From Myxococcaceae bacterium (GTDB taxonomy: Bacteria; Myxococcota; Myxococcia; Myxococcales; Myxococcaceae): a stretch of 56,920 nt of DNA. Of this stretch, positions 2,061 to 6,500 are shown one piece after another (positions within the stretch are counted from its first letter, which is position 1; every line of letters starts with the position of its first letter). The position numbers and the translations under genes were made by a program. Location of the stretch: positions 1 to 56,920 of the forward strand of contig JADGRA010000064.1 in assembly GCA_017881265.1 (NCBI GenBank). Direction: 5' to 3'. The notes beneath the pieces are model-generated. The model ran no database searches, was not told the origin of the DNA, and was given only the letters and a program-made list of their open reading frames with translations.

Positions 2061-2633
2061 GGATGCGATTTGATTTTGGTCTCGGGATTTAGACGTCCCT
2101 TCCGTCCGATTTGGCGACGGCAGTACGGCGTCCACCTCGTGCTTGAATGCCCGTGTGCCGACTCTGGCGCGCAGTCACAGCTGTCCTTCGTAAGCGCGTT
2201 CCCCAGCTTAAGTTCAGGCCGGAGTTTCGGTTCGGACACCCGTGGCTCGTCGTCTGGCTCGACTTCATCGAAGCGAATGTGGTTCACGACACGCTTCGCT
2301 TGGACTTCGATGGTCGCAGCATCCGGGGCGGCTGGAGTCCCAGTTATCTCAATTGGGACGATGGCGTCCCCGCCAAAGCCACTTAGAACTCTGCGCGCGC
2401 CGCGTACCACCGGGGGTACTTCTCGTTGCGACCCGCGGCACCACCCGCGGGCAAGGAGGTGTCCCGTGCTTATTCAGCCAAACGGTTTCCCGGGATGCTT
2501 CTTGGAGCGCGGATAGGCGTCGGTCGTCGCATTCCCAATTGACGGTCGTCTAGCTGGCGCGCGGCCAAGTAGCGCTGCGTTCTTGACCCTCGTGCACCGG
2601 CCGGTCGGCTGGCGCTAGCTGGAAAACCGTTTC
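2061..2633. other. Stretch without a confident gene
   Basis: Several open frames overlap here but none has a start with a ribosome binding site or a family I can name with confidence. The only protein-like stretch is the short plus-strand frame at 2147-2386, listed separately. Confidence 0.5.
2147..2386 (+). pseudogene. Possible small gene or gene fragment
   Basis: A 79-residue frame whose second half (FRFGHPWLVVWLDFIEANVV, then SYLNWDDGVPAKAT) has the hydrophobic and aromatic pattern of real protein, unlike the arginine- and serine-rich shadows around it. It resembles the middle of an uncharacterised protein with a WSP-x3-NWDDGV-type motif, and it stops abruptly. No ribosome binding site is obvious before the ATG. 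I cannot assign a function. Confidence 0.3.
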
Positions 2634-3065
2634 ATGTCCAAAAACTCTCGTCGTACGCAAATGCGTCACGCGCTGTCGGAGCTGTCTGCCTTTCAACCTG
2701 CAAACCAACCGGAGGATGCACTCGGCCATCGTCAGGGCCGCCTCGAACACATTCTGCGAGATGAAATCCAAGCCCTCATTCGCGATGAAGCAACGGACCC
2801 CTGTGTAGACGGTGTCGCTCTTCTCGCTGTTCACCTCTCACCAGACGGCGGTCATGCGCGCATTCCCTAGGCCGTCGTGGCACGTCTCGAGGAGGAACAA
2901 GACGCAAAGCGCACAAGCCAAGCGGGCCTGCTCAGGGCCACTGGCTTCTTGCGGGCGCGTCTGGCGCAGCAACTCGACCTGAAGAAGCTGCCCAAGCTGA
3001 CCTTCACATTCGTCGGCGTCGTGCAGCGCGAAGGAGCGACTGGAGGTGAGCCATGCCCCGAGTAA
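2634..3065 (+). pseudogene. RbfA-like ribosome-binding factor, interrupted by in-frame TAG
   Basis: RbfA is a small KH-fold protein that binds the 30S subunit near helices 44/45 during maturation. Residues from about 35 on fit the family: GRLEHILRDEIQALIRDE, DPCVDGVALLAVHLSPDGGHARI, then after the stop ATGFLRARLAQQLDLKKLP and LTFTFVGV. The two halves lie in the same frame, separated only by TAG at 2868-2870, where a Tyr codon (TAC) would be natural; the joined protein would be 143 residues including the stop position. It has an N-terminal extension of about 30 residues and lacks nusA/infB neighbours, so it is more likely a paralog than the housekeeping rbfA. Its TAA (3063-3065) overlaps the start of the rtcB-like gene. 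Confidence 0.72.
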
Positions 3066-4214
3066 TCCTCCCGCCCGCCGGAGACCGACACGTCCCCATA
3101 CATCTTTTGGGGACGGGCCGTCCCCGACGGAGCGCTGGAGCAGCTTCGACAAGTAGCCTCACAGCCGTACGTCGTCGAGCACGTAGCTGCCATGCCCGAC
3201 CTCCATGTCGCAAACGGAATCGCCGTGGGGACGGTGTTCGCCACCGAGGACACCATCGTGCCAGCCGCGCTCGGCGGAGACCTCGGCTGCGGAATGAGTG
3301 CCGTCCGTTTCGACTACCGGGCAGCAAACCTCACCAGGCTCGATTTGGGAAGGCTGCTCAATCGACTGAGCCACCTTATCCCAGCTGGGAATGCCACCCA
3401 TCGTGGGAAAGGGCTCTCGGTTCCTGAGGGCCTTCTGGCTGCTCCGCGCTCCACGACGACGCTCGAACACGCCCGCGAACGGCTTGCCCCGAGACACCTG
3501 GGAACGCTTGGTGGCGGTAACCACTTCATCGAGTTGGACCGAGATGGCGGCGGTGACCTGTGGCTCCTCGTGCACTCGGGGTCCCGAGGAATGGGGTCGG
3601 CAATTGCCGCACACCACGTACACGCGGCCCAAGCCGAGGGCGGCGGAGACATACCTGGCCTACGTCTCGACTCAAACCAAGGCTTGGCGTGCTTCTCAGA
3701 CATCGACTGGGCACTTCATTTCGCCCGCGCGAATCAGGACGCTCTGCTTCGCCGGGCCACGTCGCTCGTCACGGAACTGACTGGACAGGCACCCGACGCA
3801 TCCAGCCTGGTCGACGTCCACCATAACTTTGTTGCGCGCGAGGAGCACTTCGGTCGATTGCTGTTCATACATCGCAAGGGCGCCATCGCTGCGCCGGTCG
3901 GCGAGCTCGCCCTCATCCCCGGGTCGATGGCATCCGCCTCGTACATCGTCGAGGGCAAAGGCGAAGTCTATTCCTTCCGTTCCGCCTCGCACGGAGCCGG
4001 TCGAGTGATGACGCGCCGTGAAGCGCGAGAGCAAATCCGTCCGGAGCGCTTTGTTCACAGCATGCGTCGTGTCGTATTTGACGACCGCAAGCGGGCATCT
4101 CTGGTGGAGGAGGCACCTGCTGCGTACCGCGACGTCGGGCAGGTACTTGAGGACGAAGCGGATCTCGTGCGTCCTGTCATCCGCTTGGAGCCCTTAGCTG
4201 TTCTCAAGGGCTAA
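3053..4214 (+). pseudogene. rtcB: RtcB-family RNA ligase, frameshifted near the N-terminus
   Basis: RtcB joins RNA 2',3'-cyclic phosphate or 3'-phosphate ends to 5'-hydroxyl ends using GTP and Mn2+. Core motifs are intact: GGDLGCGMSAVRF (metal Asp and Cys), LGTLGGGNHFIELD, VDVHHNFVAREEHFG, FIHRKGAIAAPVG and SASHGAGRVMTR with the guanylylated His. The ATG at 3053 follows GGAGG by six bases and overlaps the upstream stop, so it is the natural start. That frame reads MPRVILPPAGDRHVPIHL, then the family sequence WGRAVPDGALEQLRQVA continues in another frame. The switch falls in the T4G4 run at 3105-3112, where removal of one T restores 386 residues. An internal ATG at 3192 would give a 340-residue product lacking the N-terminal strand. 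Confidence 0.85.
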
Positions 4215-5391: not shown

Positions 5392-5933
5392 GGTCGGCCT
5401 CGAGCGGCAGCCCGGGCGGTGGATGACGTCGCTCGACCGGCGTCAACGACCGGACAACTCGTTAGTCTCGGTTGGTGTCGGCAGACCCCGAGCGCCGGCC
5501 AGTGGAGCATGCCACAGCATTCCTTGTGGCTCCGACGCTAGCGGCATCGCCGCAAAGAAAACGGGGCAAGCCATGTTGCGCCAGTGTTGCGCTAGCCAAT
5601 CAAACTCACCCCAACGCGACTCAACCCATGCAAGGGGCAACAACTCAACCTCAGGGATTCTGGACGGTTGGCCGCCAACGCCTTGGACTCATTTGGGCTT
5701 TTTCTTCGCCGCACCGGGTTCGCATCCTAGTTCCCCAGCTGTTTGGCCCAGACCCGTTCGCGTTTGTCCTGACGTCGAACCGTTGACGGGTAGACACAAG
5801 CGCGGCTCTGATTTGCCACCTCCTGAGGAGCGGCGTCATCGCCGGTGTACTCGAACACCTTCAGTCTGCTAGCTCGTACCGGGCAGCTCGCTCCCCGTTC
5901 AAACCAGTCTCTTTCGCTGCGAAAGGGCCACCC
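5392..5933. other. Stretch without a recognisable gene
   Basis: Open frames here are proline-, serine- and cysteine-rich and do not resemble proteins. A short direct repeat of TTGCGC at about 5577-5592 is the only local structure noticed. The region should hold the promoters for the minus-strand toxin-like gene and the plus-strand selenoprotein. Confidence 0.5.
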
Positions 5934-6500
5934 GTGAGCACTCTCCGCATACTCGTTGGGGCCGTGGCGCTGGCCATCGCGTTACCCGCATACGCCGACG
6001 CCCCCATCACGCACCTGTTGGGGCCCGGTGAGAAGGCGCCAGACTTCACCTTGCTGAGCGACGACTGGAAGGAGGTGAAGCTGAGCGACTTCCGTGGAAA
6101 GAAGAACGTCGTCCTCGTCTTTTACGTGCTCGCCTTCACCGAAACTTGAAGCAGCGAACTCAAAGCCTATCAGGTTGATGGGCCAAAGCTGGGCGCGAGC
6201 GACACGGTGGTTCTCGGAATCAGCGGTGACAGTCCGGCAGCAAATGCAGCTTTCGCCAAACAAATCGGCATACAGTTCCCGTTGCTAAGCGATACAGGGC
6301 TAAAGCTACTTCGGCAATACGGCGTACCCGTGCGCACGAAGCAGGTCGGAGGCACGAGTTACGAATTGGCTCAACGCGCAACGTTCGTCGTCGACAAACA
6401 AGGCATCATTCAACATGTCGACGTTGGACAGGATGCCGTGGATCCAGCGAAGACAGTGACTTCCTGTAGCTTGCTCGAGCATTCAAAGCCGCACCCGTAA
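5934..6500 (+). CDS. Secreted AhpC/TSA-family peroxiredoxin with selenocysteine at the peroxidatic position
   Basis: Peroxiredoxins reduce peroxides through an N-terminal peroxidatic Cys in a T-x-x-C motif. Here residues 1-21 are a signal peptide, then [25 protein letters not shown] and [12 protein letters not shown] lead to an in-frame TGA at 6147-6149 (codon 72), followed in the same frame by [15 protein letters not shown] and a complete thioredoxin-fold C-terminus ([39 protein letters not shown]). The TGA replaces exactly the catalytic Cys of T-E-T-C, and a SECIS-like hairpin follows. Full length would be 188 residues with a possible resolving C178. The start GTG at 5934 is chosen for the signal peptide; no strong ribosome site is visible. 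Reading the TGA as a stop would give two meaningless fragments. Confidence 0.88.
6165..6183 (+). promoter_or_regulatory. SECIS-like hairpin for UGA recoding
   Basis: GCCTATCA (6165-6172) can pair over eight positions, one of them a G-U, with TGATGGGC (6176-6183), leaving the apical loop GGT at 6173-6175. The loop begins 24 bases after the TGA. Bacterial SelB-binding elements are small hairpins at this distance with a GGU-type loop, so the element fits the known rules. The stem also encodes ordinary family residues (KAYQVDGPK). Confidence 0.75.

Follow-up and report, generated by a model that had tools for sequence, protein, structure and literature searches.

The ligase RtcB2 and the release-factor paralogue PrfH form a two-gene operon that is the main bacterial example of mending cut rRNA inside assembled ribosomes. 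PrfH–RtcB2 operons are sporadic, and some copies are disrupted (PMC1586002, PMC9223846). Colicin E3 cuts helix 44 (h44) of 16S rRNA at A1493/G1494, and RtcB2 reseals E3-cut 30S subunits and, together with PrfH, restores function (PMC9223846). The authors of that study suggested a possible role for PrfH in drawing RtcB2 to damaged ribosomes (PMC9223846). RtcB can also reverse cleavage by Escherichia coli MazF, which cuts 16S rRNA just 5′ of h45 (PMC5408214). RbfA, a 30S assembly factor, binds in the neck of the 30S subunit, where its helix-kink-helix points towards the h44/h45 junction; once bound, the 30S is unsuitable for 50S joining (PMC8201178). A literature search conducted outside the main RNA-repair operon catalogue (Burroughs and Aravind 2016) returned nothing relevant on RtcB with RbfA, nor any paper devoted to RbfA paralogues like those described here.

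We analysed a window of 56,920 nucleotides, which is contig C20 of the draft genome G000 (4.4 Mb, 81 contigs). The initial annotation had placed an RbfA-like gene ahead of an RtcB gene and overlapping its start, with an rtcB start codon at 3053 and a GGAGG sequence. Matches to the RbfA and RtcB families (Pfam accessions PF02033 and PF01139) and the coordinates confirm each of these elements. The features of the locus are as follows:

2621–2632, plus strand: leader element GGAAAACCGTTT, directly 5′ of the rbfA2 ATG; related elements occur in about half of the relatives.
2634–3065, plus strand: rbfA2, an RbfA paralogue frame of 143 codons interrupted by TAG (PF02033, 56.6 bits; cut-off 34.7).
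2868–2870, plus strand: in-frame TAG within rbfA2; Tyr in L036, L051 and L035.
3042–3046, plus strand: GGAGG ribosome-binding site of rtcB, within rbfA2; a Shine-Dalgarno-like sequence is kept at most junctions.
3053–4214, plus strand: rtcB of the RbfA2-linked clade (PF01139), with its body frame at 3192–4214 shifted relative to ATG 3053; catalytic residues are intact in the body.
3105–3108, plus strand: TTTT run, the site of a net +1 frameshift in rtcB, by comparison with L035, L037, L046 and L051 (..PI-x-LWGRxVP..).

The rbfA2 stop codon lies at 3063–3065, and the 13-nt overlap arises from the position of ATG 3053 inside the end of rbfA2. The window RtcB matches PF01139 at 299 bits (cut-off 27) over profile positions 1–426 of 426, and its named relatives belong to Myxococcota. 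The window RbfA2 exceeds the PF02033 cut-off, and some distant relatives fall below it.

Two other genes in the window deserve mention. An IS-type transposase with an integrase core domain lies at 7–618, at the contig start and 2 kb 5′ of the broken pair. A peroxiredoxin-like gene (family assigned by eye; 5883–6500, plus strand) has an in-frame TGA at 6147–6149, the expected position of the peroxidatic Cys (..FTET*SSELKAY..), and a predicted stem-loop 3′ of this TGA. Because G000 carries tRNA-Sec (67.3 bits), the peroxiredoxin-like gene is a candidate selenoprotein.

A phylum-wide search of 195 genomes, plus follow-up, found this RtcB subfamily in 73 genomes of Myxococcota. RbfA2 is encoded directly upstream of RtcB in all 73, as is an RbfA paralogue in 19 of the 19 closest relatives in our genome collection (L035–L053). 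By contrast, RbfA2 is beside none of the other RtcB paralogues at the 18 loci checked. These comprise ten loci of ~40%-identical paralogues (L173, L175, L176, L178–L184), seven more distant loci (L185–L191) and L134, the second RtcB of G000, which has no RbfA2 beside it. The gene-neighbourhood check proposed in the initial annotation thus found the linkage conserved across Myxococcota, and conservation in 73 of 73 genomes rules out chance adjacency. Translational coupling is conserved as well: 66 of 72 distinct rbfA2–rtcB junctions overlap by 1–13 nt, and at least five of six Shine-Dalgarno bases are present at 57 of 68 scored junctions.

The pair spans many families (codes f1, f3, f5, f8, f13, f15 and f17), is patchy within Myxococcota, and is present in a Myxococcus xanthus strain and its close relatives. 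Flanking genes are common within Myxococcus and Pyxidicoccus and different elsewhere. Because the pair persists in genera whose neighbouring genes differ, the conserved unit is the pair alone; the varying flanks rule out a larger fixed cluster. Two genomes (G005 and G045) keep RbfA2 without this ligase, and G036 has a divergent RbfA2-like orphan. The RbfA2 of G045 clusters with the RbfA2 of the congeneric G090, a genome that carries the pair.

Beyond Myxococcota, no second RbfA was found in 198 genomes from the phyla of L114 (Desulfogranum) and L054 (Acidipila). Viral contigs contained no RbfA2 relative, which speaks against a phage-borne module, and matches in the phage collection were weak. 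Plasmids encode distant RtcB only (at most 39% identity among the best matches listed), which speaks against a plasmid-borne one. A PADLOC search did not match the pair to a known defence system. As far as tested, this two-gene module is restricted to Myxococcota.

In other Myxococcota families, RtcB adjoins an RbfA-like partner that has diverged strongly (in L132, ..LQLCRQVERTL..). The loci concerned are L132 (from G042), L130 (from G036), L169, L174 and L177, the orphan in G036 among them, and they may represent a second subtype of the pair.

The upstream gene is a duplicated, diverged copy of RbfA. A strong canonical RbfA is present in 60 of 60 relatives searched, and a second, weaker RbfA is present in 19 of these, 16 of which have it adjoining RtcB. 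The canonical gene of G000 sits between infB and truB. G000 therefore possesses the infB-linked rbfA that the initial annotation had asked about, and the idea that the window gene is the sole genomic copy is ruled out. RbfA2 proteins miss the RbfA equivalog cut-off (TIGR00082, 51.15 bits) with scores of 40.4, 45.1 and 39.6 bits, compared with 93.5 bits for the canonical RbfA of G000. A 130-column tree separates RbfA2 from canonical RbfA, with the weak support expected for a short protein, and the nearest relatives of the window copy are the RbfA2 proteins of L036 and L035.

Structural comparisons agree with this assignment. The RbfA2 profile matches solved RbfA chains at 1e-15. We built an AlphaFold model from the relative L036 rather than from the broken window copy (mean pLDDT 74.6), and all of its top Foldseek matches are RbfA (target TM up to 0.78), including the 30S-bound RbfA of E. 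coli and Staphylococcus aureus. RbfA2 is thus predicted to keep the RbfA (KH) fold. Most members retain an A-x-G-type kink (ASG, ATG or ANG) before a conserved Arg, and the basic N-terminus is disordered in the L036 model. RbfA2 therefore has the fold and family signature of canonical RbfA but differs from it in being a second gene outside infB–rbfA–truB, in scoring below the TIGR00082 cut-off, in its basic N-terminal tail and in its coupling to rtcB.

RbfA2-linked RtcB proteins form one clade (support 99/96; 96 in a wider set), which is separate from RtcA-linked and PrfH-linked RtcB. The RtcB body in the window contains the motifs GGDLGCG, GGGNHFIEL, VHSGSRG, DVHHNF and SHGAGR and a C-terminal KG, and its residues for metal and GMP binding line up with those in the RtcB structure from P. 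horikoshii. We take the aligned motifs to be the metal-binding Asp/Cys/His residues and the guanylylated His. The window ligase keeps its catalytic residues and is predicted from sequence to join 2′,3′-cyclic phosphate and 5′-OH ends.

This ligase is not RtcB2. The TIGR03073 (RtcB2) cut-off of 271.8 bits is missed by the RtcB proteins of the window (153.7), L051 (170.1) and L043 (139), and score and tree together rule out membership in the PrfH-linked group. PrfH (TIGR03072) scores over its cut-off in none of 11 pair-bearing genomes checked. This result fits the suggestion that an RbfA-like protein stands in PrfH’s place, but because the ligase lies outside the RtcB2 family, the suggestion holds as an analogy and not as an orthologous swap. 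Archease is absent from 7 of the same 11 genomes, including G000, and is present in several; a separate rtcB–rtcA operon also occurs in several pair-bearing genomes. Large myxobacterial genomes (G007, G011, G022, G028 and G034) have six to eight RtcB matches each, some of which are pieces of one gene. These belong to several distinct lineages, with one RtcB next to RtcA, another next to a gene resembling archease and the rest on their own.

The region upstream of rbfA2 has a conserved leader. An element resembling GGGAACCGTTCGTCC lies 10–16 nt before the rbfA2 start codon and is conserved between genera (the window and loci L035–L214). Three genomes contain the exact motif, each a single time. 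Near-matches in genomes are no commoner than those of a reversed control, and a regulon defined by the motif is therefore unsupported. Inverted copies of AAACCGTTT lie ~140 bases apart at 2480–2490 and 2621–2632, and similar pairs occur in L035 and L036. This long-range inverted repeat is confined to the window and a few relatives (6 of 68). We found no sigma-54 site upstream of the pair.

For the window pair itself, the gene identities, adjacency and overlap given in the initial annotation stand, but neither reading frame is intact. Close relatives (L036, L051 and L035) read HARVAYAV, with Tyr, where the window rbfA2 has TAG. The frame that begins at ATG 3053 reads MPRVILPPAGDRHVPIHL and then runs out of frame, and the RtcB body goes on as WGRAVPDGALEQLRQ in another frame. 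This break lies near codon 18. Because relatives are unbroken there (PIRLWGREVP or PIFLWGRAVP), one extra base in the TTTT run at 3105–3108 explains the frameshift. The first start codon in the body’s own frame is ATG 3192, with which ~45 residues would be lost. The body is otherwise well preserved: it is open for 357 codons, contains all catalytic motifs, and departs at 4 of 106 columns that are invariant in 35 relatives, only slightly above the relatives’ own departures. Pairwise dN is ~0.22 with dS saturated, and dN/dS well below 1 indicates that the ligase is under purifying selection.

We also identified broken copies in five further genomes. Myxococcus dinghuensis (L048; also G134) has an extra base in the N-terminal region of RtcB. 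An internal deletion is present in G017 (L123), whose congener G032 is intact, and a deletion in G130 (L212) fuses the two genes, which are intact in the congener G131. Frameshifts affect RbfA2 in G119 (L163) and the C-terminal end of RtcB in G150 (L211). This comparable damage in five other genomes indicates that the RbfA2–RtcB module is expendable.

The window copy is probably a recent pseudogene that has no function in G000, whatever the intact module does elsewhere, and the module in this genome is probably dead or dying. The TAG in rbfA2 together with the frameshift in rtcB, the transposase at the contig start and the like lesions in the five other genomes argue for this reading, whereas the open 357-codon body, its complete catalytic residues and its few departures from invariant columns argue against it. 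The less likely alternative is that both lesions are sequencing or assembly errors and that the module is intact in G000. A draft assembly of 81 contigs and a little-decayed ligase body are consistent with such errors, but a TAG substitution and an indel would both be needed within ~240 bases, and comparable lesions occur elsewhere in the group, in near-complete genomes too (G134 and G017). We consider this alternative unlikely.

What might the intact module do? The docking site of RbfA at the h44/h45 junction covers known 16S break sites that RtcB enzymes seal (PMC8201178, PMC5408214, PMC9223846), in agreement with the initial annotation, and this coincidence gives the pair a clear prediction. 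We infer contact between RbfA2 and RtcB, 16S rRNA as the substrate and, from homology, 30S binding by RbfA2. On free 30S subunits, RbfA2 would dock in the small-subunit neck, facing the h44/h45 junction. Its targets would be subunits whose 16S rRNA has been cut close to the decoding centre or to the 3′ end, either at A1493/G1494 as by colicin E3 or 5′ of h45 as by MazF. RbfA2 would keep these damaged subunits out of translation and hold or present the broken 16S ends to the co-translated RtcB, which would reseal the 2′,3′-cyclic phosphate and 5′-OH ends. We give an even chance to the central claim, that RbfA2 binds damaged 30S subunits at their h44/h45 neck and brings RtcB to 16S breaks close by.

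Some observations count against delivery. RbfA2 or an RbfA2-like gene occurs without this RtcB in two or three genomes (G005, G045 and G036), and 30S binding could have been lost, since RbfA2 falls below the RbfA equivalog cut-off. A search for a colicin E3-type nuclease gave no match in 60 relatives, but the control search was silent too. In the window, moreover, neither gene of the pair is intact.

Two other functions can be weighed against delivery. In one, RbfA2 serves conditionally in the maturation or storage of 30S subunits, and RtcB mends other RNAs during the same stress, so that the genes have an operon in common but not a substrate. Members of an operon often work in parallel, and orphan RbfA2-like genes exist (L116 and L131), but RbfA2 accompanies this RtcB clade wherever the clade was found (73 of 73), and gene order and overlap are fixed while the neighbours change; we regard this parallel function as improbable. 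The other, in which RbfA2 is an archease-like activator or cofactor of RtcB with no action on the ribosome and RtcB acts on tRNA or other RNA, is quite improbable. A 1:1 complex would suit a partner that is small, conserved and translationally coupled, and RtcB may need another helper where archease is absent, but RbfA2 has the predicted RbfA (KH) fold and RbfA-family residues with no archease match, RtcA-linked and unlinked RtcB proteins of the same phylum lack RbfA2, and several pair-bearing genomes do possess archease.

Delivery of RtcB by RbfA2 remains our preferred reading, and a broader interpretation of it is more tentative. RbfA may have been duplicated to become the subunit through which an RNA ligase recognises damage and is delivered to it. 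Such a subunit would spot 30S subunits that have been cut and are in a maturation-like state, so that they return to use. The system would perhaps answer rRNA-cutting toxins in these predatory, multicellular bacteria and would solve the problem of ribosome repair a second time, independently. A phylum-wide fixed RbfA2–RtcB pair, as a system independent of RtcB2–PrfH, suggests a dedicated repair kit for cut rRNA, and the M. xanthus strain that carries the pair makes knock-out and cleavage assays feasible.

Among known systems, the RtcB–archease association resembles the pair in placing a ligase beside a small partner gene (for example L188, with the partner named by eye). It differs in that the partner of the pair has an RbfA fold and many pair-bearing genomes lack archease. 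The RtcR-regulated RtcBA operon likewise encodes an RtcB ligase for RNA repair, but the RbfA2-linked RtcB has no adjoining RtcA, belongs to another clade and lacks a sigma-54-like site upstream. The RtcB2–PrfH operon (TIGR03073/TIGR03072) shares several features with the pair: two translationally coupled genes for RtcB and a paralogue of a ribosome-binding factor, a patchy distribution with disrupted copies in some genomes, and the same expected ligase chemistry. However, PrfH is a release-factor paralogue that is encoded downstream and acts on 70S ribosomes, whereas RbfA2 is an RbfA paralogue encoded upstream of rtcB, and its ligase misses the TIGR03073 cut-off and belongs to a clade of its own. 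The principle of coupling RtcB to a ribosome-binding factor is thus already known, and the pair described here joins a different factor to a different RtcB lineage.
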